Positions 2,921-30,215 of a stretch of 58,160 bases of DNA are shown here, in pieces. The DNA is from a virus, in the IMG/VR virus record IMGVR_UViG_3300032898_000006, positions 1 through 58,160 of that record; one strand, given 5' to 3'. Each line of letters opens with the position of its first letter. Positions within the stretch are counted from its first letter, which is position 1. The notes under the pieces were generated by a model, which worked only from the letters and a program-made list of their open reading frames with translations, ran no database searches and was not told the origin of the DNA. A program made the position numbers and the translations under genes.

Positions 2921-2923
2921 ACC

Positions 2924-4527: not shown

Positions 4528-4530
4528 CCG

Positions 4531-5673: not shown

Positions 5674-5726
5674 CAGGCGCTGCAGGCCCACTGACGACAT
5701 AACAGATCAACAGACGGAGGACACAG

Positions 5727-7875: not shown

Positions 7876-8113
7876 CCCGGCTGCCGCCCTCGACGCGATC
7901 GAAGCCGCATACCAGGCCCGCGCAGACGTCTGGACGGCCCTGCATAAGGTCGAGTACCAGCTGACCCGTAACAGCAGCTCCCCGAATCTTTCTGTTGTCG
8001 GGGCCGCCCTGGAGGGAGCCGTTGAGGCGTGCGACCGGACGCGGGCGGCGATCGAAAGGGCGCAGGCCGAGGCGGGCCCGATCGACATCTGGAAGGCGAC
8101 TGACTGTGGCTGA
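7868..8113 (+). CDS. Hypothetical helical protein (81 aa)
   Basis: GTG at 7868 overlapping the previous gene. Predicted all-helical, likely coiled coil (ALDAIEAAYQARADVWTALH). Unrecognised. Confidence 0.5.
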   Translation: MADPAAALDAIEAAYQARADVWTALHKVEYQLTRNSSSPNLSVVGAALEGAVEACDRTRAAIERAQAEAGPIDIWKATDCG

Positions 8114-8624
8114 GCTTCGGACGCTGACGGTAAAGCAACCATGGGCCCACATGATCGCCCACTGCGGTAAAACGGTGGAGAACCGCTCCTGGCCGACGAC
8201 CCACCGCGGATTGCTGGCGATCCACGCCGGCGCCTACTCAGGCTGGGATCCGGCAGGCGAGGGGAGCCCGGTCGCTCGTGCTGCGTGGCGCGAATGGTCG
8301 GCGACGCTTCCGCCGCTGAACATCACCGGCCCTCTCCGCAGGGGCGCGATTCACATCGACTTCGGGGCGATCGTCGCCGTCGCCGAGTTGTCCGGCTGCC
8401 ACGCGAGCGGGCCGGACGGCTGTGACGGCAACTGGCAGGGGCTGGACGGCTGGCTCCGCCCGCGATGCTCGCCGTGGGCCGTCAACGGGCAGTGGCACTG
8501 GGTGCTGGAGAGCGTCCGCCCGCTTGCCGCGCCTGTGCCGTGCAGGGGCAGGCTCAGCCTATGGCGGCTCCCCGAAGACACCGAGGACGCCGTGCGGGCG
8601 CAGATGGAGGCGACCAGTGCCTGA
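8106..8624 (+). CDS. ASCH-domain protein
   Basis: The 172-residue product starts with the classic ASCH pattern LTVKQPWAHMIAHCGKTVEN followed by RSWPTTHRGLLAIHAG, then GAIVAVAELSGC. ASCH proteins have a PUA-like beta-barrel and are linked to RNA binding or RNA-associated enzymatic roles. GTG at 8106 overlaps the previous stop. Its presence in an operon that ends with RtcB is suggestive of RNA-related functions but this is inference. Confidence 0.8.
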   Translation: MAELRTLTVKQPWAHMIAHCGKTVENRSWPTTHRGLLAIHAGAYSGWDPAGEGSPVARAAWREWSATLPPLNITGPLRRGAIHIDFGAIVAVAELSGCHASGPDGCDGNWQGLDGWLRPRCSPWAVNGQWHWVLESVRPLAAPVPCRGRLSLWRLPEDTEDAVRAQMEATSA

Positions 8625-8886
8625 ACTTCATGACATCCTTCCCCGCCGCAAGACCCCCGAGACCCGCGACGCCGACGGCTGGTGCCGCATCACCGTGCAG
8701 AGGTGCTGCAACGGGTGCGGCGAGCAGATCGGCGACGTGACCATGATCGAGATGGAGCTGGCCATCGCGGGGGAGCCGCTGCCCGATGTGCGCCCGGAGT
8801 GCCCTCGATGCCGGCCGACGATGAACCCGTCCCTGGCCCTGGTCACGAAATCCGCACCCGCGCAACTGGAGGCGCATGATGGCTGA
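8617..8886 (+). CDS. Putative zinc-binding protein (89 aa)
   Basis: Contains RCCNGCGEQI and ECPRCRPT, a CxxC pair about 40 residues apart, compatible with a zinc ribbon. GTG start overlaps the upstream stop by 8 nt. Confidence 0.55.
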   Translation: MPELHDILPRRKTPETRDADGWCRITVQRCCNGCGEQIGDVTMIEMELAIAGEPLPDVRPECPRCRPTMNPSLALVTKSAPAQLEAHDG

Positions 8887-10188: not shown

Positions 10189-10369
10189 AGTAACTCTCAC
10201 CTGCGTGAGCGCCGAGGACGCGCGGATCGTCGCGGCCGAGGCGAACAAGGACGGCGATCCGGCGCACCGGTCGAAAGCGCCCTGCAGAAACCCCCTTGCA
10301 GGTCACAGGAGGATAGGAAGTTATGGAGCAGATCTCGAAGCGGCTGTTCAATTGGGCGTCGATCCTTGA
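10181..10369 (+). CDS. Small hypothetical protein overlapping rtcB start
   Basis: GTG at 10181 is coupled to the upstream stop. The first 30 residues (MAEVTLTCVSAEDARIVAAE) look coding; the rest less so. The frame runs 47 nt into rtcB, which itself has a strong ribosome-binding site, so the true 3' end may differ from what was made in the ancestor. Confidence 0.35.
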   Translation: MAEVTLTCVSAEDARIVAAEANKDGDPAHRSKAPCRNPLAGHRRIGSYGADLEAAVQLGVDP

Positions 10370-11525
10370 GCCGAACACCCGCGAGCAGGCGGAGCGGACC
10401 GCGTCGATGCCGTTCATCTGGCCGCACCTCGCACTGATGCCGGACGCCCATCTCGGCAAGGGCGCGACCGTCGGGTCGGTCATCCCGACGCTCGGCGCGA
10501 TCATCCCCGCCGCGGTGGGAGTGGACATCGGGTGCGGAATGTGCGCCGTCCGCACCCAGCTCACCGCCGAGGACGTGCGAAGCCGCGGGAACCTCGCCGC
10601 GCTGAGGGAGTCGATCGAGAAGGCGATCCCGCTGTCGGCCGGCCACTACAACACGGCGCTGCGGGACAGCGAGACCGAGAGGCGCGTCGGCGAGTTGTTC
10701 ATGCTGGACGGCGCCTGGTCCGCGGAGAGCATCGCGCCGAACTGGAGCCTGCAACTCGGCTCGCTCGGATCGGGGAATCACTTCATCGAGATCTCTCTCG
10801 ACGAGCTCGACCGCGTATGGCTGTTCCTGCACAGCGGAAGCCGCGGGGTCGGCAACAAGCTGGCCGTCAAGCACATCAAGATCGCCCTCGAGCAGTGCGA
10901 GCGCCGGTGGATCACCCTTCCCGATCCCGATCTCGCCTACCTGGTCGAGGGCGACCTGCAGTTCTCCGAGTACCTCTGCGATCTCCGCTGGGCGCAGCAT
11001 TTCGCGCTCCTGAACCGCGAGGAGATGATGCACCGGGTCATCGGCTGCGTCGCCGATTGGTCCGGCGAAACCGCGCAGCAGCTGGAGACGGTCAACTGCC
11101 ACCACAACTACACCGAGCAGATGTCCGGCGACCTGCTCGGCCAGTGGAAGCGGCCGAAGAACGCGCACGGCCACGTGTGGCTATCCCGCAAGGGCGCGAT
11201 CGACGCCACCGAGGGCACGCCGGGCCTGATCCCCGGATCCATGGGCACCCGTTCCTACGTGGTCGAGGGGCGCGGCAACCCGCTCTCGCTCAACTCCTCG
11301 CCGCACGGCGCAGGCCGCGAGTACAGCCGCTCAGCGGCGCGTAAGACGTTCACCCGCGAGCAACTCGACGAGGCGATGAGCGGCATCGAGTGGGGCCGCT
11401 CCGACGCCTTCCTCGACGAGATCCCCCGGGCCTACAAAGACATAGATGTTGTGATGGCCGACGCCGCGAGCCTCGTCGAGATCAAGCACACGCTGCGGCA
11501 GATCATCAACGTAAAGGGCGACTAG
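10323..11525 (+). CDS. rtcB: RtcB-type RNA ligase
   Basis: RtcB joins RNA 2',3'-cyclic phosphate (or 3'-phosphate) and 5'-OH ends using GTP and Mn2+, repairing cleaved tRNAs and other RNAs. All signature blocks are present in order: PDAHLGKG (Asp/His metal ligands, about residue 41), VGVDIGCGM (metal-binding Cys, about 71), GSGNHF (about 150), LHSGSRG (about 170), CHHNY (about 260), LSRKGA, PGSMGTRSYVV, SSPHGAGR (guanylylated His near 328) and C-terminal IINVKGD (Lys). The length of about 400 is normal for a bacterial/phage RtcB. An AGGAGG-like site precedes ATG 10323. It closes the early operon. A Ro60 gene with Y-like RNAs lies 12 kb downstream, paralleling bacterial rsr-yrl-rtcB loci. Confidence 0.95.
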   Translation: MEQISKRLFNWASILEPNTREQAERTASMPFIWPHLALMPDAHLGKGATVGSVIPTLGAIIPAAVGVDIGCGMCAVRTQLTAEDVRSRGNLAALRESIEKAIPLSAGHYNTALRDSETERRVGELFMLDGAWSAESIAPNWSLQLGSLGSGNHFIEISLDELDRVWLFLHSGSRGVGNKLAVKHIKIALEQCERRWITLPDPDLAYLVEGDLQFSEYLCDLRWAQHFALLNREEMMHRVIGCVADWSGETAQQLETVNCHHNYTEQMSGDLLGQWKRPKNAHGHVWLSRKGAIDATEGTPGLIPGSMGTRSYVVEGRGNPLSLNSSPHGAGREYSRSAARKTFTREQLDEAMSGIEWGRSDAFLDEIPRAYKDIDVVMADAASLVEIKHTLRQIINVKGD

Positions 11526-13072: not shown

Positions 13073-13348
13073 ATGCCGCCGAGTCCCCGAAACTCCCCCG
13101 CCCTCGAGGCGGCGCTGTCCCGCGACACGACCCGCCGCGACACCGGCTGGCACCGCGACACGTCCGAGACCGGGTGGGAGATGCTCTTCGGCGACGGGCA
13201 GTGGCACCCGGTCGACGTACGCGTCTGGTGGACCGACGACCGCGGGCGCGAGGTCGTGCAGATCTACTGGACCGCCGAGTACTCGACGTGGACCGGGGTG
13301 TTCGTCTTCGACGCCGGCAAGGCCCGCGAGATCGAGGCCGACGACTAG
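13073..13348 (+). CDS. Hypothetical protein (91 aa)
   Basis: ATG at 13073. Tryptophan-rich beta protein (WEMLFGDGQWHPVDVRVWWT). Its stop converges with the minus-strand endonuclease gene, overlapping by 4 nt. Unrecognised. Confidence 0.6.
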   Translation: MPPSPRNSPALEAALSRDTTRRDTGWHRDTSETGWEMLFGDGQWHPVDVRVWWTDDRGREVVQIYWTAEYSTWTGVFVFDAGKAREIEADD

Positions 13349-14172
13349 GCGGCTGCGCTCCCCGGCGGCCACCGAACAACCCCGTCCTCGCCGATGATGT
13401 CCTTCTTTCGCGGGGCGGCGTACACCAGCCGCCTCAATTCTGCGATCGGCAGCACGTCGGTCGGCTGGATGTCCGCATGCAGGGAACTCTGCCGCGCCCT
13501 GTAGATGTGCTCCATGAGCGGGCGGGCGGGGAGGAACCACTCGGTCCGGCCGAGTTGGTAGGCGCGGAACTTGCGGTGCGTTCGCCGCTCCTCCTGGTAC
13601 TCGCCTGCGCGCAGGAGGAGCGGCTGGAGGCCGCCATGGTCCGCGCGGTGCTGCTCTAGTCGGGATCGGAACCTCTTCGACGTGCCGATCTTGATCATGC
13701 CGTCCGACTCCCGGCGCAGGTAGTAGACGACGCTGTGCCGGGCCGTGGCGCGCTCCCATGCCGCCGCGGCGGCGTCGGCCTCCCGCTCGTAGCCGGCCTT
13801 GGCCTCCACGAGCTCCCGGGTCGCCTCTCTCAGCTCCGCCGACTCGCGGCGTATCTCCTCGGCCCTCGTCTCCGCGACGCGCCACCGCTCCAGGATGTGG
13901 AAGTGGGTCTCGCACAAGTCGATCCCGTGGACGCGATGCTCCGCCGGCGCCCCGCAGATCTCGCCCTGGACGAAGCCGGGGCGGCCCTTCAGTCCGATTC
14001 GCCGTGCAACGCACACGGGCGCGTCGGTCTCGGCCCAGCCGCCGGCCTCGTTATCGTGAACGGCGATCACCGGCCCGTGCGGACGGCCGCGGTTGCATTT
14101 AGGACAGGACCACCGGTCGTGCCCCGCCGCGTGGCGCATCACCTCGGCCTCGCCGGTGACCCTCGGCGGCAT
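13345..14172 (-). CDS. GIY-YIG-type endonuclease (T5orf172/MUG113-like) with zinc site
   Basis: The 275-residue product has an N-terminal zinc-binding region (DRWSCPKCNRGRPHG, later ICGAPAEHRV and LCETHFHIL), a long helical coiled coil (about residues 110-150), and a C-terminal GIY-YIG-like domain: VVYYLRRESDGMIKIGTSKR followed by RFRSRLEQHRADHG and ERRTHRKFRAYQLGRTEWF. This matches T5orf172-type domains found in phage and homing-like nucleases. Start at 14172 (MPPRVTG) is uncertain; 14139 (MRHAAGH) is possible. It lies between the early cluster and the integrase and may be a mobile gene. Confidence 0.75.
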   Translation of the reverse strand: MPPRVTGEAEVMRHAAGHDRWSCPKCNRGRPHGPVIAVHDNEAGGWAETDAPVCVARRIGLKGRPGFVQGEICGAPAEHRVHGIDLCETHFHILERWRVAETRAEEIRRESAELREATRELVEAKAGYEREADAAAAAWERATARHSVVYYLRRESDGMIKIGTSKRFRSRLEQHRADHGGLQPLLLRAGEYQEERRTHRKFRAYQLGRTEWFLPARPLMEHIYRARQSSLHADIQPTDVLPIAELRRLVYAAPRKKDIIGEDGVVRWPPGSAAA

Positions 14173-14462
14173 GAGGGGCAGTTCGTAGGCCGGGGTGCTC
14201 GCGACCAAGCGGGGACTCCCCTCGGCCGCCGACTGCTCGCCTCGCTTAGCGGGGACTGGCGCCACGGCCGCTATCCCTCCCGTCACTCGCGTTCTGGGGA
14301 GATCCTGGGGACGACATCGCCTCGGAGCGCCCCGGAACGCACGGGAGCGCCCCGGAACGCGCATCGGCTACCTGGACGACCGAACACGCAGCGTTGTCAC
14401 CTGCGACAACCTCCCGGGATTTTTTCGCGGACCCCCTTGTACTGGCGAAGGGGGTTGGTATC
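14173..14462. other. Gene-free region beside integrase; candidate attP/arm-site zone
   Basis: About 290 nt without a supported gene. It contains a 17-bp direct repeat (14324-14340 and 14344-14360), a stretch GATTTTTTCG, and a 7-bp hairpin CCCCCTT/AAGGGGG. Direct repeats next to a tyrosine integrase are the expected form of arm-type sites, but the attachment core cannot be identified without the host junctions. Confidence 0.4.
14324..14360. repeat. 17-bp tandem direct repeat
   Basis: GGAGCGCCCCGGAACGC occurs at 14324-14340 and again at 14344-14360, a 20-bp period. Confidence 0.85.
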
Positions 14463-16148
14463 TCACGCACGACTGTCCCGCCGCAGGTCAAGCCCGGTTC
14501 GAGTCGGGAGGGAAACCACCGCATTGTCATGATCTGGTGAGATTCTGGAGACCGGTTTGATTTTCCGGGCCTCCGCGCGCTCGAGAAGCATCGCGTCGAG
14601 GACCGCGACGGGGGAGCGGGGCGACAGCGCGAGGCGCGCGTCGAGCGCCCTCTCGTGCTCCGCGGCCATCATCGCGGCGAGCTCCTCCCTCATGTTGCCG
14701 GTCACGTGACGGTAGGCTCCCGACACCCCGGGGATGTCGTGCCGCAGGTGCGTCTCGGCCATGATGTGCGGGATCCGGTTCCCCTCCATCAGCGTCCGCA
14801 TCGAGTGCCGGGCCATCAGGTGCGGGGTCAGGCCCGGGGCGACCGGCTCCCACCGCACCGTGGCCCGGCTGATCGCCCGCGGCCCGCGCAGCCGGGTCCC
14901 CGGCCACTCGCCGCCGAGCGGCACCGGCCGCTTCGGCAGCCCCCGCCCGGCCGGGGGCAGCTCGCCGGTCGCCGCGGCCTTCACGATGCCCTCGAACGCG
15001 CTGCTGCGCCAGTGCCACGCCGGGTCCGCAGCCAGGGCGCGGCGGGCGAAGCCGGTCGCCGCCGCGGTCTCCTCGACCCGCTTGCGCGCCGCCGCCGATA
15101 TCCCGGCCGCGCCCGTCAGCGCCTTCCGCGCGGTGGTCGGCGACACGCCCGCGATCGCCGCCACGTCGGCGAGGGTCACGGCGCCGGCCGGGGCCCGCCC
15201 GCCGGCGGGGACGCCGAACCCCCGGAACAGGTAGGCGAACCCGTGGCACGGGCACTTACGGGCCGGGCGGGACGCGGCGAACGCCTCGAGCATCGCCGTC
15301 ATGAACGGGGCGAGGATCACGTCCCCGAACGAGTTGTCCTTCGGCGGGCAGCGCAGCAGGCCCCCGGGCGCCTCCGCCCGCATCGTCGCCGCGACGTCCG
15401 TCTCGCCCTCCCTCGCCTGCTGGAGGTCGAGCTGGTGCAGCTGCCACTCCACCCGCAGCCCCTCCGGCCGGAGGTACCGCCGCTCGAGGCCGATGAGCTC
15501 GCCTAGGCGCAGCGCCCCCCAGAACGACGCCTGGCCCATCACGAACTCCTGGTCCTGGCCGGTGAGGATCGCCATCCGCTCGGATATCAGGAGCACGCCA
15601 AGGGCGTCGGTGAACGGCTTCTCCGGGCCGCGGCCCTTGCCCTTGTCCGCCCGCTTGCCGCGGTTCCCCTTCCGGCGCGCCGGGTTCTGGCTAATGATCT
15701 CGGGCACCGCGTCCTCGAGGCAGGTGTGAAGGGTGCCGCGCCAGGTGGCGATGCTCGCGGGCATCTTGCCCCCCTTGCGCTCTTTCATCTCCCAGGCGCC
15801 GATCATCGCCTCGGTGATGTCGGCCAGGCGCACCGCGCCGAACTCCCTGAGGAGGTGATCGTCTAGGTGCCGCCTGCGACCCGCCATCGTCGACCAGGCC
15901 AGGTTCAGCCCCCCGTACCATTCCTCGGCCCACTCGGCGAAGGTCATCTCGGACGCCGGCTTGACAACCCGGCCGTTGCGGACGTCGGACTGACTGTCCT
16001 CGGCGGCGTTCTTCGCGTCCTGCTTGAGGGAGAACCGGATGACGTCGCCGTTCCCGTCGCGGACGCTGACCCAGCCCCCGGCCGCGTCCCTGTACCGGCC
16101 CCGCCAGTAGTCGCCCCTCGGGGACGGCACTCTCTCCGCGTACGCCAT
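14463..16148 (-). CDS. int: Tyrosine integrase with inserted LacI-type HTH
   Basis: Serves phage integration at an attachment site. The 561-residue product has an N-terminal AP2-like DNA-binding region, a SAM-like core-binding domain (TFAEWAEEWYGG onward), and a catalytic domain with R214 (GALRLGELIGL), H443 and R447 (HLMARHS) and Y479 (SGAYRHVT). Between the first Arg and the HxxR box lies a complete LacI-family helix-turn-helix (residues about 324-375: VTLADVAAIAGVSPTTARKA, then ISAAARKRVEETAAATGFAR). The gap between the two boxes is about 230 residues, roughly 100 more than usual. Start at 16148 shares one base with the repressor stop (TGATG), so repressor and integrase are co-transcribed. 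Confidence 0.9.
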   Translation of the reverse strand: MAYAERVPSPRGDYWRGRYRDAAGGWVSVRDGNGDVIRFSLKQDAKNAAEDSQSDVRNGRVVKPASEMTFAEWAEEWYGGLNLAWSTMAGRRRHLDDHLLREFGAVRLADITEAMIGAWEMKERKGGKMPASIATWRGTLHTCLEDAVPEIISQNPARRKGNRGKRADKGKGRGPEKPFTDALGVLLISERMAILTGQDQEFVMGQASFWGALRLGELIGLERRYLRPEGLRVEWQLHQLDLQQAREGETDVAATMRAEAPGGLLRCPPKDNSFGDVILAPFMTAMLEAFAASRPARKCPCHGFAYLFRGFGVPAGGRAPAGAVTLADVAAIAGVSPTTARKALTGAAGISAAARKRVEETAAATGFARRALAADPAWHWRSSAFEGIVKAAATGELPPAGRGLPKRPVPLGGEWPGTRLRGPRAISRATVRWEPVAPGLTPHLMARHSMRTLMEGNRIPHIMAETHLRHDIPGVSGAYRHVTGNMREELAAMMAAEHERALDARLALSPRSPVAVLDAMLLERAEARKIKPVSRISPDHDNAVVSLPTRTGLDLRRDSRA

Positions 16149-16657
16149 CAGCCGCCGCCTTTCTCGTCGCGCTCCCTGATCCTGTCCGCCTCGGCGAGCG
16201 CGAGCTCGGCCGTGCAGTCCTCGATGTCCTCGGCGATCCCGCGGGCGGCCTCGGCGACGCGGGGGAACTCCGACTTCGCGCCGCGCTCCGCGGTGCGCGC
16301 GGCCGCGTCGCGGGCGTCGTCGAGCCGCGCCTTGGCGAGGGCGAGCTCGCGCCACGCCCCGCGAAGCCGGGCGGAGGCGGCGGCGGCCATCTCCCGCTCC
16401 GCCGCCTCCGGGGCCGACCAGGTGAAGCGGTCCGTCGTCACTCCGAGGATCGCCGCGAGGGCCATCGCCTCGTAGAAGGAGACGGACCGGTCGCCCGCCT
16501 CGACTCTGGTGACCGTGTTCTGGTGCCACGGGTAGCCCTGCGCGGCCATGCGCGCGGCGAGTTCCCGCTGGCCCATGCCGCGCCGCTCGCGGGCGGCGCG
16601 GAGGTTCTCGCCGAACGCCTTCTTCTCCGCGAGGAGCCGCTCGTCATCCGATGACAT
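16148..16657 (-). CDS. XRE-family repressor (CI-like)
   Basis: 169 residues. The N-terminal HTH reads FGENLRAARERRGMGQRELA, then ARMAAQGYPWHQNTVTRVEA; the remainder is a helical, charged domain suited to oligomerisation rather than a peptidase-type domain. Divergent from the Cro-like gene and in front of the integrase, the standard immunity arrangement. A minus-strand TAATGT ends 7 nt before the ATG, so the message is predicted leaderless, as for many lysogenic repressors. Confidence 0.8.
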   Translation of the reverse strand: MSSDDERLLAEKKAFGENLRAARERRGMGQRELAARMAAQGYPWHQNTVTRVEAGDRSVSFYEAMALAAILGVTTDRFTWSAPEAAEREMAAAASARLRGAWRELALAKARLDDARDAAARTAERGAKSEFPRVAEAARGIAEDIEDCTAELALAEADRIRERDEKGGG

Positions 16658-16740
16658 GGATCAGACATTACATCGTTATGTGTTCACCACGCATACCGAA
16701 ATGGGATTAGTATCCTCAGTTGTGGTCGGAGGTGATCCTA
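16658..16740. promoter_or_regulatory. Divergent immunity-region promoters
   Basis: Leftward: TAATGT (16670-16665) 7 nt before the repressor ATG, with TGCGTG 17 bp upstream. Rightward: TAGTAT (16708-16713) ahead of a strong GGAGGTGA ribosome-binding site for the Cro-like gene. Between them is a dyad ACAT-CGTT-ATGT (16669-16680) and a looser ATGTG...CGCAT dyad (16678-16694), possible operators. Confidence 0.55.
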
Positions 16741-16985
16741 TGACGATATCGGCGGACAGCGCCGTGACGCTAGCGCGCCTGCGCGCAGATGTGGCCAGCG
16801 GCAGGGCCAAGGAGGTCCGGGAACGGGCCCGCCTGTCGCAGGCGGAGGTCGCCAAGGCAGTGGGAGTGACTCAGCCGACGGTGGCCGGCTGGGAGGCGGG
16901 ACGGAAGATGCCGCACGGCGAGCGCGCCGCCCGGTACGCGGACCTGCTCGCGCGACTCGAGCAGGCAGAGCAGGAGGAGCAATGA
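16741..16985 (+). CDS. XRE-family Cro-like regulator
   Basis: 81 residues. HTH at about 25-60: RERARLSQAEVAKAVGVTQP, then TVAGWEAGRKMPHGERAARY. Start at 16741 is set by GGAGGTGA 5 nt upstream. First rightward gene from the immunity region, so expected to oppose the repressor. Overlaps the Xis-like gene by 4 nt. Confidence 0.8.
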
Positions 16986-17275
16986 CGACGGCAAGGCCAT
17001 CCCCGGAGGAACTCGCCGCAGTCGGCGCCCCGGTTCACTACACGCCCGCCGAGGCGGCGGCCATTCTCGACCCCTCGGGGAAGACGACCGGCTACTGGCT
17101 GCTCAAGCGGGCGCGGAGCGGCCTGTTCCCGTGCACGCGGGTCGGCCGGTCGATCGTGTTCTCCCCGGCGAACCTCGCCGAGATCGCCAGGGGCCTGAAC
17201 AAGCCGGCCGCGCCGCGCACCATCGCGACGGCGGCCTCGAGGTCCAAGCAGCAGAAAAGGCGGAGCGCCGCGTGA
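16982..17275 (+). CDS. Excisionase-like HTH protein
   Basis: 97 residues with a small winged HTH of the excisionase/MerR type: YTPAEAAAILDPSGKTTGYW, then LLKRARSGLFPCTRVGRSIV (recognition and wing) and FSPANLAEIARGL. The tail is basic (KQQKRRSAA). Position right after the Cro-like gene suits a directionality factor for the integrase. It could alternatively be a transcription regulator. Confidence 0.7.
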   Translation: MTTARPSPEELAAVGAPVHYTPAEAAAILDPSGKTTGYWLLKRARSGLFPCTRVGRSIVFSPANLAEIARGLNKPAAPRTIATAASRSKQQKRRSAA

Positions 17276-17403
17276 ACACTCCCACCCTTCCCAACGACGA
17301 CGACACGCTCCCGAACCCCTGGCGACTGGGGCAGCGCCCGGTACGCCGGGCCGAAGACGGGCGATCCCGGTTCCGGACGCGGCTCCCTCGAGAGGCGGCC
17401 GTC
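17272..17403 (+). pseudogene. Duplicated, frameshifted leader of the GT gene
   Basis: From GTG 17272 the frame reads MNTPTLPNDDDTLPNPWRL, nearly the same as the start of the downstream glycosyltransferase (NAPTLPNDDTVPNNWRL). The homology continues only after a frame change: RYAGPKTGD in another frame matches RAYTGPHTGQQ there. It thus looks like a decayed copy of that leader. It stays open in frame with the GH12-like gene, so it might also serve as an N-terminal extension. Confidence 0.5.
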
Positions 17404-18234
17404 ATGATCCGCCGGGCCCTCGCCCCGCTGGCCGCGCTCGCCGCCGCCGGCGCGCTGTTCCTCGCCCCGGCCGCGTCCGCGGCGGTCACCCCCGCCGGCG
17501 GCGTCGCCCTCTGGAACCGCCCCGTCTGCGGCGCCGAGTACGTCCCGATCGACATGGGCGCAGGCGACTACTTCAACGTCTACAACGAGCAGGACGGCCG
17601 GTCCTGCGTCTCGGCCGAGGAGCACCACCTCAGCTTCGAGGTCACCTCCCGCGGCGGCTCCGTCAAGGGCTGGCAGTACCCGAACATCAGCAGCGGCTGG
17701 GAGTGGGGCCGCTACACCTGCGCTGACGGGCGATCGGCCTACCCGGCCTCGCCCGGGTCGCAGTGCATGCGCTACCCGGTGCAGGAGAAGGCCGACGGCA
17801 CGCCGCTGACCTCGGTGACGTACTTCCCGCACCTCGCGGCCGGCAACGTCAGCTACGACATCTGGTTCAACCGGACGGACTCCGCGCCGGGCCAGGACGA
17901 CGGCACCGAGGTCATGATCTGGCTCGCGCACCCCGGGGTGAGCATCCCGGCCCGGTCCGTCTGCTGGGACGCCACCATCGGGGGCGTGAAGTACGAGGCG
18001 ATGTGCTGGACGGCGCGCAACGGCGCGACCAGCTGGAACTACGTCGCGTACGTCGCCGTCAGGCAGACCGCGACGCTGCCGCCGACCTGGCTGAACGGCT
18101 TCTTCCGGAACGCCATCAGCCACGGGAAGCTCAGCCCCGACTGGTGGCTGACCGGGATCGATTTCGGGAGCGAGATGAACAGCGGCGGGACCGGGTTCGC
18201 CGTCAAGACCTACATGCTCAAGGACGTGCGATGA
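17404..18234 (+). CDS. Secreted GH12-like glycoside hydrolase
   Basis: 276 residues with a Sec signal peptide (MIRRALAPLAALAAAGALFL, cleavage after the ASA box). The mature part fits family GH12 (endo-beta-1,4-glucanase/xyloglucanase jelly-roll): EVMIWLAHPG with probable nucleophile E169, SWNYVAYVAV, and GIDFGSEMNSGGTG with probable acid/base E257. Its stop overlaps the glycosyltransferase start (ATGA), so the two are coupled. Likely acts on a glucan outside the membrane, perhaps trimming the product of the neighbouring synthase. GH12 assignment is by motif. Confidence 0.75.
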   Translation: MIRRALAPLAALAAAGALFLAPAASAAVTPAGGVALWNRPVCGAEYVPIDMGAGDYFNVYNEQDGRSCVSAEEHHLSFEVTSRGGSVKGWQYPNISSGWEWGRYTCADGRSAYPASPGSQCMRYPVQEKADGTPLTSVTYFPHLAAGNVSYDIWFNRTDSAPGQDDGTEVMIWLAHPGVSIPARSVCWDATIGGVKYEAMCWTARNGATSWNYVAYVAVRQTATLPPTWLNGFFRNAISHGKLSPDWWLTGIDFGSEMNSGGTGFAVKTYMLKDVR

Positions 18235-19883
18235 GCGGCGCCGGGGGGAGCAGCGTGAACGCTCCGACGCTTCCGAACGACGACACCGTGCCGAACAACT
18301 GGCGGCTAAGGGAGCGCGCGTACACCGGGCCCCATACCGGGCAGCAGCTCGCCGCCATCGACATGCTCGAGGAAATAGCGAGAGCTCAGGCAGTACACGC
18401 CACGACCGAGCTCCCGCATTACGACGGGCCGAGGACGGGGGATCAGCTCGCGCTCCTCGGAACCGGCGAGCGGGGCGCGATCGAGGCAGCGGAGCGGGAG
18501 ATGGCCCCGCGAGGGCGAGGCGCGCATTCCCGGGGTCCGTCGCGACGGAAGCCGTTCCCGTGGGACGACCTCAAGCACCGGGCGCTTGTCGTTGCGGTGA
18601 CCGTGGTCTGCGTCGCCGCGCTCTGGCTGGTGCAGGATTACGCGTGGCCGGGGAAGCCGAGACTGCACGGCACGTTCGCCGAAGTATGGACGTGCACCGG
18701 GCTGCTTTGGCTGGCGCCGCTGCCGGCGTCCGTCTTCAACCTGGTTGGGCTGTTCTGCTACAGGCCCTCGCGGAACCGGCAGAGGGCCGCGGCGATTCCG
18801 CAGGTCGTATGCTGGCGGATCGTCTCCAAGGGGACGAACACGGAGGCGCTGGCCGCGACGATCCGGCGCTGCCGGACGGAGATGAGGGCGGCGCCACTGT
18901 TCCGGTACGTCATCGAGGTCGTCACGGACGTCGAGAACCCGCTGCTGCCGCGCGGGCCGGACGTCGCATACCTGGTCGTCCCCGAGTGGTACCAGACGTC
19001 GAAGGGCTCCCGGTTCAAGGCCCGGGCGCTGCAGTACGCCCTTGAGCACTCGCCGCTGGCCGATGACGCCTGGCTCGTTCATCTTGACGAGGAGTCGCAG
19101 CCGGTGCCGTCCGGAATCCGGGGAATCGCCCGCATGATCGCCGAGGAGGAGGCCACGGGCCGGCTGCGCATCGGCCAGGGCGCGATCGTGTACCACCGGA
19201 AATGGAAGCAGCACCCGTTCCTGACGCTGGCGGACATGCCACGGACGGGGGACGACCTCGGCCGCTTCTACCTCGCCTACCGCAGCGGCGTCACGCTCTT
19301 CGGCATGCACGGGTCGTTCATCGTCGTCCGCAACGACGTCGAGAAGGCCGTCGGGTTCGATTTCGGGCCCGTGGGGTCGATGACCGAGGACGCGTACTGG
19401 GCGCTCTGCGCGATGGAACTGGGTTACCGGTGCCGATGGGTCGACGGCTTCCTCGAGGAGCAGTCGACGCAGGGCATCATGGACTTCCTCAAGCAGCGCC
19501 GCCGCTGGTTCCAGGGCATCGTGAAGGTGTGCCTGCACGCGCCTACGAAGCTCCGCTGGCGGGTGACCTTCGGGGTCAGCACGCTGCTGTGGGCTCTCGC
19601 GCCGCTCGGGATGGCGTACACGCTCGCGCACCTGGTCGTCGGCGGCGGAGTCGGCCCCGCGGTGAAGGTGCTCGCCGACGTGGCCCTGGCGGGCTGCGTC
19701 ACGATCCAGTTTGTAGGGCTGCAGGTGAACCTCGACGAGCACGGGATCATCGAGCGGCCGAGGCGTTTCCTCTGGTACGCCCTGTCCCTGCTGAGCATCC
19801 CGGCCGCCGGGCTGCTGGAGGCGGCCAGCGTCGCGTACGCCATCATCAGGCCGAGCAGCGGCTTCCACGTGGTGGAGAAGTGA
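18231..19883 (+). CDS. Membrane GT2 glycosyltransferase, Egghead-like
   Basis: 550 residues. An Asn/Pro-rich cytoplasmic leader contains a repeated YxGPxTG motif. Then come two TM segments (about 117-140 and 155-175), a GT2 catalytic domain with LDEES (D286, donor/metal site), TEDAYWA (E386, D387) and QRRRW (422-426), and three C-terminal TM segments. The HLDEES...TEDAYWA...FLKQRRRWFQG order is that of the Egghead/beta-mannosyltransferase branch of GT2, which is close to processive beta-glycan synthases. The donor sugar is not deducible. Flanked by two secreted beta-glycanase-like proteins, suggesting a polysaccharide-modifying conversion cassette. Confidence 0.85.
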   Translation: MSGAGGSSVNAPTLPNDDTVPNNWRLRERAYTGPHTGQQLAAIDMLEEIARAQAVHATTELPHYDGPRTGDQLALLGTGERGAIEAAEREMAPRGRGAHSRGPSRRKPFPWDDLKHRALVVAVTVVCVAALWLVQDYAWPGKPRLHGTFAEVWTCTGLLWLAPLPASVFNLVGLFCYRPSRNRQRAAAIPQVVCWRIVSKGTNTEALAATIRRCRTEMRAAPLFRYVIEVVTDVENPLLPRGPDVAYLVVPEWYQTSKGSRFKARALQYALEHSPLADDAWLVHLDEESQPVPSGIRGIARMIAEEEATGRLRIGQGAIVYHRKWKQHPFLTLADMPRTGDDLGRFYLAYRSGVTLFGMHGSFIVVRNDVEKAVGFDFGPVGSMTEDAYWALCAMELGYRCRWVDGFLEEQSTQGIMDFLKQRRRWFQGIVKVCLHAPTKLRWRVTFGVSTLLWALAPLGMAYTLAHLVVGGGVGPAVKVLADVALAGCVTIQFVGLQVNLDEHGIIERPRRFLWYALSLLSIPAAGLLEAASVAYAIIRPSSGFHVVEK

Positions 19884-19891
19884 CTCCCGCG

Positions 19892-20815
19892 ATGAGGCTG
19901 TCCCGGCTGTCCGCGGTGGCCGTCACGGTGGCGATCCTCGCGGGCTGCTCTGCCGCCGGGGCGCAGATGCAGTCTCCGGTCCGCGCGCAGGGCTCTTCGC
20001 GGGGCTCGATGCTGTCGGGGGTGTACGAGCCGGACAACCCGGGGTCCTACGGGCAGGTGGCCTCGTTCGCCGCGGCAACAGGGCTGCATCAGGACATCGC
20101 CGTGTACTACAGCGCGTGGGGGAAGCCGTTCGCCTCCGCGTTCGCCGAGCAGTCGCACGCTCAGGGCACGACGGTCCTCGTGCAGCTCAACCCGGCCCAC
20201 GGGGAGGTCGGAGCCGTCGCCGCCGGCAGGCAGGACTCGTACCTGCGGTCGTACGCGGAGCAAATCAAGCGGCTTCGCTTCAATGTCATCGTCAGCTTCG
20301 GTCAGGAGATGAACGGCAACTGGTACCCCTGGGGCCAGGGATACGTGTCGCCGGCGAGCTTCATCAGCGCATGGCGGCGGGTGGTGTCGGTCTTCCGGGC
20401 GGCCGGAGCGTCGAATGTGATCTGGCTCTGGGACGTTAACTCCAACTTCACGGGCGGCTATCCGATCTCGCCGTGGTGGCCGGGAGCGAACTACGTCACA
20501 TGGGTCGGCGTGGACGGCTACTACACGCGCCCGCAGGACACGTTCGCCAGCGTCTTCGGCTCGACCATCACCTCGATCCGGGCGCTGACGAGCAAGCCCG
20601 TCCTGATCGCCGAGACTGCGGTCGGCCCTGACTCCGGCGCGATGCGCGCGGCGCAGGTACGCGGCCTGTTCGCCGGGGTGAAGGCCGATCACCTGCTCGG
20701 CTTGGTCTGGTTCGACCAGAAGCAGGACGACGGGTCGTATCACCAGGACTGGCACATCGAGGATGACCCGGCGGCTCTGGCCGCGTTCAGGGCGGCAGTG
20801 AAGGGGTTCGGGTGA
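19892..20815 (+). CDS. GH26-like lipoprotein
   Basis: 307 residues with a lipoprotein signal (VAILAGC lipobox). The mature domain is a TIM-barrel glycoside hydrolase of clan A. Its acid/base is E139 in VSFGQEMNGNWYPWG and its nucleophile E241 in KPVLIAETAVG, both matching family GH26 (beta-mannanase or lichenase/xylanase relatives). An alternative GTG start at 19880 overlaps the GT stop. Surface-anchored hydrolase of a beta-glycan; substrate unknown. Its stop overlaps the next GTG start. Confidence 0.8.
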   Translation: MRLSRLSAVAVTVAILAGCSAAGAQMQSPVRAQGSSRGSMLSGVYEPDNPGSYGQVASFAAATGLHQDIAVYYSAWGKPFASAFAEQSHAQGTTVLVQLNPAHGEVGAVAAGRQDSYLRSYAEQIKRLRFNVIVSFGQEMNGNWYPWGQGYVSPASFISAWRRVVSVFRAAGASNVIWLWDVNSNFTGGYPISPWWPGANYVTWVGVDGYYTRPQDTFASVFGSTITSIRALTSKPVLIAETAVGPDSGAMRAAQVRGLFAGVKADHLLGLVWFDQKQDDGSYHQDWHIEDDPAALAAFRAAVKGFG

Positions 20816-21171
20816 ACGTCCCGGTCCTCGTCCTCGCCGTGCTGAGCGTCATCAGCGCATGGCTGTGCGGCAATGCCGTCGGTCGCAGGCAGTACGCCAA
20901 GGCGGCGACGTGGGCTGCGGGCACCGCCGTCATCCTCGGCGTGGCCTCGGCCATCGACGCGGCGGCCGGGCAATGGCCCGCAGCCGCGATATACGGCGCG
21001 GGCACCGCAGGCTGGGCTTGGATCGCGTGGAAGAACTGGCGCAGGAGGAAGCGGAAGCGGTCGCTGAAGGCGCTCGGCCACAGGGCGCGGGCGAGGCTCG
21101 CCGCGATGCTCCGGAGCATGCCGAAGCCGGGGCCGGCCCTCCGCCCCGTCCCGCAAGGGGCTCGGGCGTGA
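20812..21171 (+). CDS. Small membrane protein (119 aa)
   Basis: GTG start overlapping the GH26 stop (GTGA). Three hydrophobic segments (VLVLAVLSVISAWLCG; ATWAAGTAVILGVASAI; AAAIYGAGTAGWAWIAW) then a very basic tail (RRRKRKRSLKALGHRARARL). Last gene of the glycan cassette; function unknown. Confidence 0.65.
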   Translation: MNVPVLVLAVLSVISAWLCGNAVGRRQYAKAATWAAGTAVILGVASAIDAAAGQWPAAAIYGAGTAGWAWIAWKNWRRRKRKRSLKALGHRARARLAAMLRSMPKPGPALRPVPQGARA

Positions 21172-23536: not shown

Positions 23537-23566
23537 AAGGCCCCTCCCAGCATGAGAGGGGCTTTT
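23537..23566 (+). terminator. Intrinsic terminator/attenuator overlapping the Ro60 ribosome-binding site
   Basis: Stem AAGGCCCCTC/GAGGGGCTTT with a 9-nt loop, then a T-run. The 3' arm GAGGGG lies 8 nt before the Ro60 ATG (23570) and would be its Shine-Dalgarno. The same hairpin can thus end the RNA transcript and mask translation of the read-through message. Confidence 0.75.
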
Positions 23567-23569
23567 CGC

Positions 23570-25135
23570 ATGTCACGGTTCAACACGACGGGTACGCGGC
23601 CGACAGCGGCCAGCCCGGTAGCCACGGAGGCGGTTCCGTCCGGCGTAACGCACGAGGGGGCGCCCGGCTTCGCCCGCGACAGCAAGAGCGAGCTTTTCCT
23701 GCTAGCGGTCAGCCACATGGGCGACGGGTCGTTCTACGAGTCCCAGCCCGACCGGGATACCCGCTTCCGCTCGCTGGTCCACGGCGTCGCGATGAACGAC
23801 CCGGAGTGGATGGCCCGGTTCGTCCCCTGGCTGCGGAACGGCGCGAACATGCGCACCGCGTCGGTGGTCGCGGCGGCCGAGGCGGCGAAGGCCCTCCTGA
23901 TCGACGAGAAGCCGGGCGGCCGGAAGATCGTCGCGTCGGCGCTGCAGCGCGCCGACGAGCCGGGCGAGCTGCTCGCCTACTGGACTTCCCGTTACGGCCG
24001 GGCGGTTCCCAAGCCGGTCAAGCGGGGCGTCGCCGACGCGGTGGCGCGGCTGTACGACGAGTACGCGCTGCTGAAGTACGACACCGCCTCGCACGGCTAC
24101 CGGTTCGGCGACGTCATCGACCTGTGCCACCCGGACGCGGCCGAGCCGTGGCGCGGCGACCTGTACCGGCACGCCCTCGACCGGCGCCACAACCGGGACA
24201 ACGCGGTGCCGGACTCGCTCGCCATGATCCGGGCCAACGCGATGCTGCGGGCGCGGGGCGCCGAGGACCCGGAGGCACTGCTCGACGCCGGGGCGCTGAA
24301 GGCCGCCGGGATGACATGGGAGGACGCCCTGTCGCTCGCCGGGAGCAAGGCGCCGAAGCGGGAGCTGTGGGCGGCGCTTATCCCGTCGATGGGCTACATG
24401 GCGCTGCTGAGGAACCTGCGGAACTTCGACGACGCCGGGGTGCCGGATGCTGTCGCCGAGCAGGTCGCCGCGCGGCTGTCCGACCCCGCGCAGGTGGCGA
24501 AGTCCCGGCAGTTCCCGTTCCGGTTCCTGTCCGCCTACAAGGCGGTCCCGTCACTCCGGTGGGCGTACCCGCTGGAGAAGGCGCTCGGCCTGTCGCTCGC
24601 GAACGTGCCCGAGATGAAGGGGCGGACGCTGGTCCTCGTCGACCGCTCCGGGTCGATGTTCGATGGCATCTCAGCGAAGTCGGGACTCAACCGCGCCGAC
24701 ACGGCCGCGCTGTTCGGGGCGGCGGTCGCGCTGCGGTGCGAGCACGCCGACCTTGTGCAGTTCGGCTCCTCGAGCGCTCCCGTCCAGTTCCGGGGCGCCG
24801 AGTCGGTGCTGAAGATCATCGGGCGGTTCGGGAACCTCGGCGGCACCTACACGGCCCAGGCGGTGCAGCAGCACTACCGCGACGGCTTCCATTCGCGCGT
24901 CGTCATCATCACCGACGAGCAGACGGCGGCCTACTCGGGTGACCCGCTGAGCCTGATCGCGGGGCGCATCCCCGTTTACACGTGGAACCTCGCCGGCTAC
25001 CAGTACGGGCACGGGCCGTCCGGCGGCGCCAATCGGCACACTTTCGGTGGTTTGACGGACTCGGCTTTCAAGCTCATCCCCCTGCTGGAGGCGGGCCGAA
25101 ATGCCTCCTGGCCTTGGGAAATGTCCGTAGAATAG
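23570..25135 (+). CDS. rsr: Ro60/Rsr-type protein (TROVE + vWA)
   Basis: 521 residues. Ro60 orthologues form a HEAT-repeat ring (TROVE domain) that holds misfolded RNA ends in the cavity and Y RNA on the outside. Residues about 1-340 fit TROVE (MSRFNTTGTRPT, FVPWLRNGANMRTASVVAAA). The C-terminal vWA domain has a full MIDAS: D358-R-S360-G-S362 (VDRSGSM), T426 (GGTYT) and D449 (ITDEQ). ATG 23570 is preferred to 23552, which lies inside the terminator loop. It follows four Y-like RNAs directly, as bacterial rsr genes often do. Confidence 0.93.
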   Translation: MSRFNTTGTRPTAASPVATEAVPSGVTHEGAPGFARDSKSELFLLAVSHMGDGSFYESQPDRDTRFRSLVHGVAMNDPEWMARFVPWLRNGANMRTASVVAAAEAAKALLIDEKPGGRKIVASALQRADEPGELLAYWTSRYGRAVPKPVKRGVADAVARLYDEYALLKYDTASHGYRFGDVIDLCHPDAAEPWRGDLYRHALDRRHNRDNAVPDSLAMIRANAMLRARGAEDPEALLDAGALKAAGMTWEDALSLAGSKAPKRELWAALIPSMGYMALLRNLRNFDDAGVPDAVAEQVAARLSDPAQVAKSRQFPFRFLSAYKAVPSLRWAYPLEKALGLSLANVPEMKGRTLVLVDRSGSMFDGISAKSGLNRADTAALFGAAVALRCEHADLVQFGSSSAPVQFRGAESVLKIIGRFGNLGGTYTAQAVQQHYRDGFHSRVVIITDEQTAAYSGDPLSLIAGRIPVYTWNLAGYQYGHGPSGGANRHTFGGLTDSAFKLIPLLEAGRNASWPWEMSVE

Positions 25136-27149: not shown

Positions 27150-27473
27150 CTAGACGATCTGCAGCAGGAACGGCTGGAGCACGGGCACTTCCGGGTCGTC
27201 CGTGATCCGGAGCCAGGACTGCCATGTCCCGGTGGCGAGCGTGACGGCCCCGGCCGGCCCGATCAGGATCTGGCCCCACCACTGGTCTCCGGGGTAGGTG
27301 ATCCATTCGCCGTCGGTCCACTCCGACGGGGAGACGGCCGGGTAGGCGTTCGCGTTGGTGAACGCCCATGCGATGGTGTCCGTGGTCGGGTCGTAGTCGC
27401 CGCTGACGCTGGTGACGGCGATCAGCGTCTGCACGTACTGGGTGCTCAGCACCGACTGGGTTAGCGTCTGCAC
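27150..27473 (-). CDS. Hypothetical structural protein (107 aa)
   Basis: GTG at 27473 with GAGGAGG 6-7 nt upstream. Beta-rich sequence (SGDYDPTTDTIAWAFTNANA, WGQILIGPAGAVTLATGTW), typical of minor virion proteins such as a tail or neck accessory. Not identified further. Confidence 0.6.
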   Translation of the reverse strand: MQTLTQSVLSTQYVQTLIAVTSVSGDYDPTTDTIAWAFTNANAYPAVSPSEWTDGEWITYPGDQWWGQILIGPAGAVTLATGTWQSWLRITDDPEVPVLQPFLLQIV

Positions 27474-27483
27474 GCGGCCCTCC

Positions 27484-30030
27484 TCAGGTGTTCCGGGAGG
27501 CGCGGGCGGACCACATCTGCCGGGCGGCCGACGATGACCAGAGCTGCCGGGCGGGGCCGGCGGACCAGAGCTGCCGGGACGCGAGGGCCGTGAAGACGAT
27601 CCCGACGCCCGCCCCGCCGGTGACATCCGGCGCCGGGAACGCGGCCGAGGCGGCGATCGCGGCGGGGATGACAGTGGTCCCCGCGGTGACGGCGGGCGCC
27701 GGGAAGCCGGCGGTCCCGCTGAGCGACGGCGCGGTGATGACCGTCCCGGCGCTCATCCCGGCCGCCGGGAACGCGGCGGTGCCGGGCAGGGCGCCGGCGG
27801 TGACCGTCGCGCCCGCGCCCGTGACGGCGGCGGGGAACGCGGCGGAGGCGGCCAGCGCCGCCGGGGTGATGGTCGTCCCTGACCCGGTTGAGACAGTCGG
27901 GGCGGGGAACGACACGGTTCCGGCGAGCGCAGCAGGGGTGACGGTCTCGCCTGCGCTGACTTGCGGGGCGGGGAATCCGGCGGTGCCGCTCAGCGCGCCC
28001 GGGGCGACCCCGGACCCGGCAGCCGGCGCGGCCGCGGGGAATGATGCGCTCGCGGTCAGCGGGCCGGCGGCGGCGGTCTCGCCCGAGGAGGGCGCCGGGG
28101 CGGGGAACGCGGAGCCGACGGCCAGGACGGCCGGGGCGACGGTGGCGCTGCCCCCGGCGGAGATCGACGGGACGGGGAACGCGGCGGAGCACTGCAGCAG
28201 GGCGGCCGTGAGGTTCGCGTCCGCGCGGAAACTCACCGCGGGGAACGCGGCGGACCCGGAGAGCGCGGCGGGGGCGGCGCCCGACCCTGCGGACACGGCG
28301 GCCGCCGGGAACGCGGCGGAGCCGTCCAGCGCCGTCGCGGTGGCGCCCGACCCTGCCGCCACCGTGGCTGCGGGGAAGGCGGCGCTGCCCGCCAGGGCGG
28401 CGGGGGCGGCGCCGCTGCCCGCGCCGACCGCGGGGCCCGGGAACGCGGCGGAGGCGGCCAGGGCTGCCGGGGCGGCGGTCTCCCCGGCGGCGATCGTGAC
28501 GGCGGGGAAGACTGCGGAGGCCGCCAGCAGAATGCTGGCGATGATGGCGTCTGCCCGGAGCGCGGCGGCGGGGAACGCGGCGCTGCCTGTCAGGGTCGCG
28601 GCGGTCAGGTTCGCGTCGGCGCGGATGCCCGGCGAGGCGAAGGAGGCCGAGCCGGCGAGGACCGCGGGCGTGACAGCGGCTCCGCCGCCCGCGGTGACCG
28701 TCGGGGCGGGGAACGACACGGCGCAGGGAAGCGCGGACGGCGAGACGCCGGAGCCCGCGGCGACGGCCGGGGCCGGGAACGACGCCGGGCCGGCCAGAAC
28801 CGCCGCGGCGGCCGTCTCGCCGGCGCTGACCGCCGGCGCGGTGAAGGAGGCGGACCCCGCCAGCAGCGTCATGGTGACGGTCTCGCCGGCGCTGACCGAA
28901 GGGGGCGGCAGCGCGATCGTCCCGGCCAGCACCGACGTCGTGAGGATCTCGTCGGCCCGCAGCGACGGCGCCGGGAAGCCGGCGGAGGCCGCCAGCGCGC
29001 TTGTCGTGACGGTCTCGCCGGCCGTCACCGCGGCGGCGGGGAACGCGGCCGAGGCCGCCAGCGTCGCCGGCGTGATCGTGGCGCCCGCGGTCACCGCGGC
29101 GGCCGGGAAGCTCGCGGACCGGGCCAGGACGGACGGCGTGACGGTCGCGCCCGCGCTCACCGTCGGCGACGGGAACGAGACCGAGCCGGCCAGGACGGCC
29201 GTCGTCACGGTCTCGTCGGCCTCGACCGCCGGCGGCGCGAAGGACACCGATCCTGCGAGGACCGGGGGGGCGGCCGTGGCGCCGACCCCGTACGGCGGCT
29301 GCACCGGCAGCGGGACGATCATCCGCGGGAAGGCCATCGGGGAACTGCGGCCCGGCGGGAGCGCCACCGGGCACGCGACGGCCTGGGAGGCGGCGGCCGG
29401 GGCCGCCAGGATGATCGTCGCCCCGACAGCCCAGTTGCCGGTGCTCAGCGTGCCGGAGTACGTGACGGTGCCGCTGCTGACGAGCTGGTACCCGCAGATC
29501 CCGAAGTCGGAGGACATCTGGGTGAGGTTCGTCCAGCCGCCGCCGCTCTGGCTGACGGTCTGGCCGAATCCGACGCAGCAGGCGACGGCGATGCCCGTGC
29601 CCGTGGCGCTGCCGGTGGCGCCCGAGCTGAACGTGCCGCTGGAGCCGCCCGCCGACGCCGCGGCCACCGTGGTCGGGCTCGCGCCGAGCGCGGCCACCTC
29701 GATGCCCCACGTGCCGGTCGCGCCGCTGCCGAAGTCGGTGCCGTTGGTCACGCTGAGGCCGACCGCGGCGCTCCCGCCGACCACGTTCGGCATCAGCCAG
29801 CCCGTCGAGTACGCGACGGAACTGGCGCCGAAGTTCTCCGACCACAGCTGGGACGACCCGGCGACCGACGCCCCGTTGAACGTCGGCGCCGAGCTCGACA
29901 TGGCGGTCGTGCTGTTCGCGGCGGTGGCGAGCAGCACGACGCTGCTGCCGGCGGTGACGTTAGAGCCGAACGACCCCGACCAGCTGCTGCCGGACTGGTT
30001 GATGATCGCTGACTGGACGACCAGGGCCAT
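27484..30030 (-). CDS. Large repeat protein: 25 copies of a 22-residue unit
   Basis: 848 residues. An N-terminal region of about 240 residues, Ser/Gly/Thr-rich and beta (SSWSGSFGSNVTAGSSVVLL), resembles a virion surface domain. It is followed by 25 consecutive units of the form ALAGSAAFPAPAVSAGETVT-PA, nearly all 22 residues (four have two extra), and a C-terminus with three RQLWS repeats. Start at 30030 overlaps the previous stop (TGATG). Probably an exposed fibre or appendage; function inferred only from position. Confidence 0.75.
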   Translation of the reverse strand: MALVVQSAIINQSGSSWSGSFGSNVTAGSSVVLLATAANSTTAMSSSAPTFNGASVAGSSQLWSENFGASSVAYSTGWLMPNVVGGSAAVGLSVTNGTDFGSGATGTWGIEVAALGASPTTVAAASAGGSSGTFSSGATGSATGTGIAVACCVGFGQTVSQSGGGWTNLTQMSSDFGICGYQLVSSGTVTYSGTLSTGNWAVGATIILAAPAAASQAVACPVALPPGRSSPMAFPRMIVPLPVQPPYGVGATAAPPVLAGSVSFAPPAVEADETVTTAVLAGSVSFPSPTVSAGATVTPSVLARSASFPAAAVTAGATITPATLAASAAFPAAAVTAGETVTTSALAASAGFPAPSLRADEILTTSVLAGTIALPPPSVSAGETVTMTLLAGSASFTAPAVSAGETAAAAVLAGPASFPAPAVAAGSGVSPSALPCAVSFPAPTVTAGGGAAVTPAVLAGSASFASPGIRADANLTAATLTGSAAFPAAALRADAIIASILLAASAVFPAVTIAAGETAAPAALAASAAFPGPAVGAGSGAAPAALAGSAAFPAATVAAGSGATATALDGSAAFPAAAVSAGSGAAPAALSGSAAFPAVSFRADANLTAALLQCSAAFPVPSISAGGSATVAPAVLAVGSAFPAPAPSSGETAAAGPLTASASFPAAAPAAGSGVAPGALSGTAGFPAPQVSAGETVTPAALAGTVSFPAPTVSTGSGTTITPAALAASAAFPAAVTGAGATVTAGALPGTAAFPAAGMSAGTVITAPSLSGTAGFPAPAVTAGTTVIPAAIAASAAFPAPDVTGGAGVGIVFTALASRQLWSAGPARQLWSSSAARQMWSARASRNT
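27540..29260 (-). repeat. 66-bp coding repeat array
   Basis: About 25 imperfect 66-bp repeats encode the 22-residue units of the large protein. Copies have diverged at the DNA level but keep the Leu-Ala-x-Ser-Ala-x-Phe-Pro core. Confidence 0.75.
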
Positions 30031-30215
30031 CAGGCCGGCCAGCCATCCCAGCAGCCCTTGCACCCGTGGATCGCGGGGTCCGCCGGGCGCAGGCCGAGAT
30101 CCTTGGAGCCGAGCTCCCGGATCGTGGCCTGGACGTGGGCGGCGCACGCGTAGATTTCCACCGGGCTCGGCTGCATCCTGATGACGGCTGTCACCGCGGG
30201 AACCTCGCGACCCAT
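30030..30215 (-). CDS. Hypothetical protein (61 aa)
   Basis: ATG at 30215. Contains YACAAHVQATI and a C-terminal IHGCKGCWDG with a CxxC. Coupled to the repeat-protein gene. Unrecognised. Confidence 0.55.
   Translation of the reverse strand: MGREVPAVTAVIRMQPSPVEIYACAAHVQATIRELGSKDLGLRPADPAIHGCKGCWDGWPA

Follow-up and report, generated by a model that had tools for sequence, protein, structure and literature searches.

Membrane synthases of family GT2 stand beside exported endo-glucanases in bacterial cellulose operons. In bcsA-bcsB-bcsZ the cognate hydrolase is BcsZ, a member of GH8. Cognate hydrolases are also encoded in Clostridium ccsZAB (GH5; PMC7710045) and in Streptomyces cslA-glxA-cslZ (PMC11022532). 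Among viruses, chlorovirus PBCV-1 encodes its own hyaluronan synthase and a beta-1,3-glucanase, and infected algae become hyaluronan-coated (PMC5408694). Phages are already known to modify host surface sugars. The locus described here is a three-gene cassette, GH12-GT2-GH26, at 17404-20815 of IMG/VR virus record IMGVR_UViG_3300032898_000006; the window is the entire record of 58,160 bases. The cassette is probably an exopolysaccharide module of the synthase-dependent kind, which a temperate phage infecting a soil actinobacterium has captured and which changes the surface of infected cells or lysogens.

Like the cellulose operons, the cassette combines a membrane GT2 (D,D,D,QxxRW-type motifs, BcsA fold) with an adjacent exported endo-glucanase. 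By analogy, GH26 and GH12 may trim their polymer as BcsZ, CcsZ and CslZ trim cellulose. Unlike these operons, it is phage-borne, uses hydrolases of GH12 and GH26, and has no recognised BcsB or GlxA partner; its GT2 is ~14% identical to BcsA in structural alignment. Like PBCV-1, it encodes a beta-glucanase and a similarly folded GT2 polysaccharide synthase, but PBCV-1 is a eukaryotic virus whose genes are not a coupled pair, whereas the window is a double-stranded DNA phage with an operon. RiGT2 of Romboutsia ilealis, likened here by its description, is a bacterial GT2 that makes mixed-linkage glucan cut by lichenase; a single GT2 can suffice, and the accessible text of that source reports no GH26 partner (PMC10374906). 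The gtrABC genes of P22 and Shigella phages are likewise a temperate-phage glycosyltransferase cassette that alters the host surface and has a variable specificity gene. In contrast, gtrABC modifies an existing O-antigen via bactoprenol, whereas for the window a separate polymer is predicted, and it is the synthase that varies. Mangrove soil phage GX15bay (GenBank MK557849) carries GT2, GH26 and GH26 in a row, the GT2 overlapping the first GH26; its GT2 is of another lineage, and the genes were published as degradation genes (GT2-endoglucanase-mannanase; PMC6460857). A phage with a whole membrane synthase and matched hydrolases is not described as a recognised system in the papers that the search found. 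The nearest viral precedent for such a set is that of the chloroviruses.

Enzymes of the cassette

17272..17403, +, leader in frame ahead of the GH12 gene, similar to the GT2 N-terminus (VNTPTLPNDDDTLPNPWRL versus VNAPTLPNDDTVPNNWRL at 18255)
17404..18234, +, GH12 beta-glucanase-like enzyme, predicted secreted, 276 amino acids; signal peptide with ASA/A site; PF01670 4.9e-10
17908..17910, +, Glu169 of GH12 (TEVMIW), aligned with TEIMIW of 1oa4
18172..18174, +, Glu257 of GH12 (GSEMNSGGTG), aligned with GFEPWEGG of 1oa4
18231..19883, +, membrane GT2 synthase, 550 amino acids; PF13632 3.6e-20
19086..19094, +, DEE motif of GT2 (D286-E288), invariant in 28 relatives
19383..19391, +, TED motif of GT2 (T385-D387), E386 and D387 invariant in 28 relatives
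19494..19508, +, QRRRW (QxxRW) motif of GT2, residues 422-426, Q422, R423, R425 and W426 invariant in 28 relatives
19892..20815, +, GH26 lipoprotein, lichenase-like, 307 amino acids; PF02156 7e-10; lipobox LAGC
20306..20308, +, Glu139 of GH26 (QEMNGNW), invariant in 11 of 11 phage-contig GH26s
20612..20614, +, Glu241 of GH26 (IAETA), invariant in 11 of 11 phage-contig GH26s
20812..21171, +, small membrane protein, GTGA-coupled to GH26 at 20812

The original prediction described a secreted GH12-like enzyme, a membrane GT2 and a GH26-like lipoprotein, translationally coupled and placed directly after a lysogeny switch. Gene content and coordinates were correct. GH12 and GT2 overlap by ATGA at 18231-18234. 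GT2 and GH26 are separated by an 8-nucleotide gap or, with the alternative GTG start of GH26 at 19880, overlap by GTGA at the GT2 stop. Integrase, repressor, Cro-like and excisionase-like genes lie upstream.

Both hydrolases score over the cut-offs of their hidden Markov models, GH12 with 40.3 bits versus 27 (PF01670, the match limited to the C-terminal half) and GH26 with 39.2 bits versus 20.2 (PF02156). This contradicts the outcome, considered beforehand, that the enzymes belong to unrelated families; GH12, GH26 and the GH16 of relatives all have beta-1,4 or beta-1,3/1,4-glucanase members. GH12 matches Cel12-type enzymes of the PDB down to 2e-13. By the roles of their counterparts in each family, Glu169 of GH12 is the predicted nucleophile and Glu257 the acid/base, and in GH26 Glu139 is the predicted acid/base and Glu241 the nucleophile. 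In single-protein comparison GH26 matches lichenase CtLic26A at 8.3e-26. Its profile matches CtLic26A at 8e-54; the corresponding values are 3e-20 with a beta-1,3-xylanase and 7e-15 with the highest-ranking mannanase. By sequence, CtLic26A is the closest characterised relative, and GH26 is predicted to belong to the lichenase-like branch. A lipobox or N-terminal membrane anchor is present in most phage-contig GH26s.

The GT2 is a putative synthase of the processive type (BcsA/HAS kind, HAS being hyaluronan synthase), an assignment well supported by the agreement of motif set and fold. Its AlphaFold model has a mean predicted local distance difference test score (pLDDT) of 81.8 and is confident from residue 110 onward. 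The modelled layout is a GT-A domain flanked by N- and C-terminal membrane helices, the BcsA/HAS fold. The best match among solved structures is BcsA (Z 22.1 over 384 residues); fungal chitin synthase Chs1 (Z 21.6), chlorovirus hyaluronan synthase (Z 21.5 over 355 residues) and archaeal mannosyltransferase PcManGT (Z 21.2) are also near. In a viral structure library the top named near-full-length matches are from viruses of eukaryotes, and phage matches cover approximately the GT-A domain only. The cellulose synthase equivalog TIGR03030 is not matched (19 bits versus a cut-off of 699). The only Pfam match is PF13632, too broad to place the enzyme against Egghead, to which it had been likened.

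The leader aligns locally with the GT2 N-terminus with a score of 72, versus a maximum of 46 among 500 random windows. Hence GH12 was likely inserted with a duplication, of which the leader is likely a relic. The small membrane protein has no Pfam match over cut-off.

As in an exopolysaccharide operon, synthase and exported hydrolases are encoded in overlapping genes, and the hydrolases would be cognate to the synthase. The proposed set of a synthase plus trimming enzymes is well supported by processive motifs and fold, kept catalytic residues and export or lipoprotein signals. As a type of locus it gains from the pairing in unrelated phages and bacterial chromosomes.

Recurrence in phages and bacterial chromosomes

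Viral contigs were searched with GH26 alone, which returned L002 and L003, and with a five-sequence GH26 profile (including two bacterial GH26s picked via GT2), which added L059 and L062-L070. The pairing count omits L069 and L070 (other protein types, 26-31% identity) and L059 (starts within the gene). In 9 of the 9 remaining contigs a membrane GT2 lies immediately upstream of GH26 on the same strand, mostly with a 1-4-base overlap. At least three lineages are represented among these synthases: the window type (window, L002, L003); L062, L064, L065, L066 and L068; L063 and L067. Between lineages identity is ~22%, or there is no match. The second lineage retains the DSD, DD, QxxRW set and, among solved structures, is closest to chlorovirus hyaluronan synthases (2.6e-20); this kinship rests on sequence, the L065-type AlphaFold model (pLDDT 46, five sequences) having been left unused. 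Since the GT2-hydrolase grouping recurs with other synthases, the neighbourhood is not due to chance. With GX15bay included, at least ten phage-type sequences besides the window have the pair, and phages seem to pick up synthase-plus-hydrolase sets repeatedly.

GH12 occurs again in L062 (4.4e-5, slightly below cut-off) and L063 (1.7e-18). L003 carries GH16, GT2, GH16, GT2 and GH26 consecutively at 2746-8819, that is, two synthases and three hydrolases. Gene 79 of Streptomyces phage Kromp, an isolated phage whose host is S. lividans JI 1326, encodes an L065-type GT2 with 45% identity (L072 7857-9368). The phage nature of the contigs is based on integrase, portal and tape-measure matches; L063 and L066 are only candidate phages. 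The TerL model matched 0 of 10 contigs and tape measure 2 of 10. No relatives of the window GT2 or GH12 were found by tblastn among INPHARED phages. When viral and genome contigs were scanned with a single GT2 sequence, no relatives were returned; profile scans did find them. The scans of public collections used short degenerate patterns that miss relatives, and absence from these is weak evidence.

Contig L065 provides the strongest sign of how the position may be used. From integrase to excisionase (window 14281-17206) it has 80% nucleotide identity to the window. Homology resumes at 21044-21158 (82% over 115 bp), within the small membrane protein gene. Between these homologous flanks the window has GH12, a window-type GT2 and GH26, and L065 has a different GT2 and GH26. 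The position therefore appears to be a slot for accessory genes that can be exchanged, GH26 being the partner that stays constant.

Window-type GT2s are rare in bacteria: within the phylum of Blastococcus 3 of 396 genomes have one, and within the family of Streptosporangiaceae genome G009 1 of 297. A hydrolase adjoins the GT2 in 8 of 27 GT2-bearing genomes (GH26 in 2, GH113 in 5, GH16 in 1), and 5 of the 8 GH113 matches in the 27 genomes adjoin a GT2. Chromosomal GH26 genes related to those of the phages stand beside a GT2 in 10 of 12 cases. Chromosomes of soil actinobacteria retain this pairing. The nearest GH26 relatives are found in a Streptosporangiaceae genome, which suggests, without proving, that the host is an actinobacterium. 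Genome G009 (L073-L077) has eight such GH26 genes, nearly all adjoining GT2 synthases; three of these follow a single synthase in tandem.

The tree rejected monophyly of the window-type phage GT2s, those of the window, L002 and L003 (p-value of the approximately unbiased test, p-AU, 4.7e-5), and with it their single origin. Either the pairs were acquired by phages more than once, or one was passed to a bacterium. For GH26 the single-origin test is borderline (p-AU 0.054).

Lysogeny region and other features of the record

Judged by its genes, the record is a temperate siphovirus-type soil phage. Its siphovirus tail set comprises genes for a tape measure, a minor tail protein and a neck-type protein.

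14463..16148, -, tyrosine integrase, 561 amino acids; phrog_1 integrase 2.6e-22; 75% identical in L065
16148..16657, -, repressor-like helix-turn-helix (HTH) gene (HTH_31); PF13560 3.7e-9; phrog_3 repressor 1.6e-10; 58% identical in L065
16740..16985, +, Cro-like HTH gene (HTH_3); PF01381 1.5e-11; 87% identical over 61 amino acids in L065
16982..17275, +, excisionase-like HTH_17 gene; phrog_1840 excisionase 1.4e-5
44593-47901, tape measure gene, siphovirus tail gene

The repressor-like gene and the integrase form one leftward operon, from which the Cro-like gene diverges. The cassette runs rightward, on the same strand as and in line with the Cro-like and excisionase-like genes. As in lysogenic conversion cassettes, its accessory genes are placed next to the integrase and immunity genes of a temperate phage.

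The integrase contains an internal LacI-type HTH (PF00356 2.4e-6, residues 339-381 of the extended open reading frame), an uncommon architecture. A T5orf172 GIY-YIG-type gene (13345-14208, -) adjoins it. A homing-endonuclease-like gene (phrog_4645; 54517-55329, -) lies amid structural genes. RtcB RNA ligase (10323-11525, +) and a Ro/TROVE RNA-binding protein (23552-25135, +) form an RNA-repair pair on one phage; an Rfam scan of the window detected no Y-RNA-like or other Rfam family. RtcB is also present on L058, a contig bearing a window-type GT2 relative. A long gene region at 27460-30181 has 66-bp (22-residue) repeats, G + C content up to 81% and both strands open; the minus strand probably encodes a tail protein or one resembling a fibre. 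A tRNA-Leu (GAG) is predicted at 51629-51716 (+), antisense inside a predicted structural gene (51308-51805, -). This call may be false or may be a genuine phage tRNA.

Proposed function and rival explanations

As an exopolysaccharide module, the cassette would work as follows. The GT2 would polymerise a host sugar nucleotide, most likely UDP-glucose, and extrude a beta-1,4 or mixed beta-1,3/1,4 glycan across the membrane. Anchored GH26 and secreted GH12 would cut, trim or release the polymer at the outer face, acting on the product of their own synthase. GH12, GH16 and CtLic26A-type GH26 share beta-1,4 and beta-1,3/1,4-glucan as common ground, and a mixed-linkage or cellulosic glucan is therefore favoured. 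The gain to the phage would be that infected cells or lysogens present an altered surface, for example one to which fewer rival phages adsorb. Such a benefit is suggested by the position of the cassette and by the gtr and PBCV-1 precedents; the exclusion of other phages is speculative, as is the originally suggested coating of the lysogen that would block superinfection.

Several points weigh against this interpretation. No activity, product or biochemical function of these GT2s is known to us, and the sequence does not reveal the donor sugar. The product may instead be a mannan or glucomannan, as GH113 and many GH26 enzymes are mannanases. Pfam recognised no BcsB- or GlxA-type export partner within the cassette; single-protein synthases such as HAS need none. 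No GH26, GH113 or GH16 is adjacent in 19 of the 27 bacterial GT2 relatives, and the Kromp GT2 has no adjacent hydrolase. The cassette lies on the Cro side, and the repressor is expected to silence the Cro-side operon in lysogens.

The time of expression is speculative. A position in line with Cro-like and excisionase-like genes favours expression early in the lytic cycle, unless the cassette is served by a separate promoter. It is conceivable, at clearly lower probability than the captured module itself, that the Cro/excisionase operon drives the synthase-hydrolase system once a cell is infected or a prophage induced, while lysogens keep it silent, the coat on the infected cell excluding late-coming phages or limiting re-adsorption of progeny. 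The shared strand and overlap with that operon argue for this, as does the hyaluronan coat of PBCV-1-infected cells (PMC5408694). No promoter-like site was found inside the cassette, which agrees, but actinobacterial promoters are poorly detected by such a scan. Against this reading, in L062 the cassette directly adjoins and diverges from the integrase, a typical place of lysogen-expressed genes, and lambda logic is not followed by all actinophage switches. Remodelling of an existing phage receptor is unlikely; in this reading the GT2 would not make a polymer but would add single or short beta-linked sugars to a lipid or wall glycan of the host, and the hydrolases would strip host glycans. Egghead-type enzymes, cited for this explanation, are non-processive, and Egghead adds beta-1,4-mannose. 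PcManGT is also a close fold match, and the gtr operons of phages provide a well-established precedent (PMC11436027). However, the motif set and transmembrane layout match processive synthases, the partners belong to endo-acting glucanase families that require a polymer, and hyaluronan synthase is the nearest solved relative of the second GT2 lineage, which also pairs with GH26.

Readings as degradation genes or as passengers are weak. That GH12 and GH26 aid host digestion of plant beta-glucan or mannan, with the GT2 incidental, is improbable, although the mangrove-virus paper so read the glycoside hydrolases of GX15bay (PMC6460857) and soil-virus carbohydrate-active enzymes (CAZymes) are commonly read in this way. 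GT2 is directly upstream of GH26 in all viral loci checked, with at least three GT2 lineages, most GH26s are anchored by lipobox or N-terminal membrane segment, and the GT2-GH26 pair is held together in bacterial chromosomes as well. The presence of the same pairs in bacteria would also fit a host exopolysaccharide gene pair picked up randomly, with no benefit to the phage. This is very improbable: more than one acquisition is indicated, in several unrelated phages, active sites are intact despite deep divergence, and in L065 one pair is replaced by another within a fixed slot.

Captured modules of this kind, if confirmed, would be a new way in which phages convert the surface of soil actinobacteria, and CAZyme genes of the soil virome would be reread as making, not digesting, polymers. 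Matched synthase-hydrolase pairs would then be a ready source for glycan chemistry, and Kromp gene 79 offers a laboratory handle on the L065-type GT2 family. A bolder and more tentative proposal is an actinophage coat-type slot, in which the whole synthase is swapped and GH26 is kept, each prophage or infection giving a different beta-glycan surface. If true, the slot would be the whole-polymer counterpart of gtr serotype conversion, and the GH26, GH12 and GH16 "carbon-degradation" genes of soil viruses would largely be parts of polymer-making systems.

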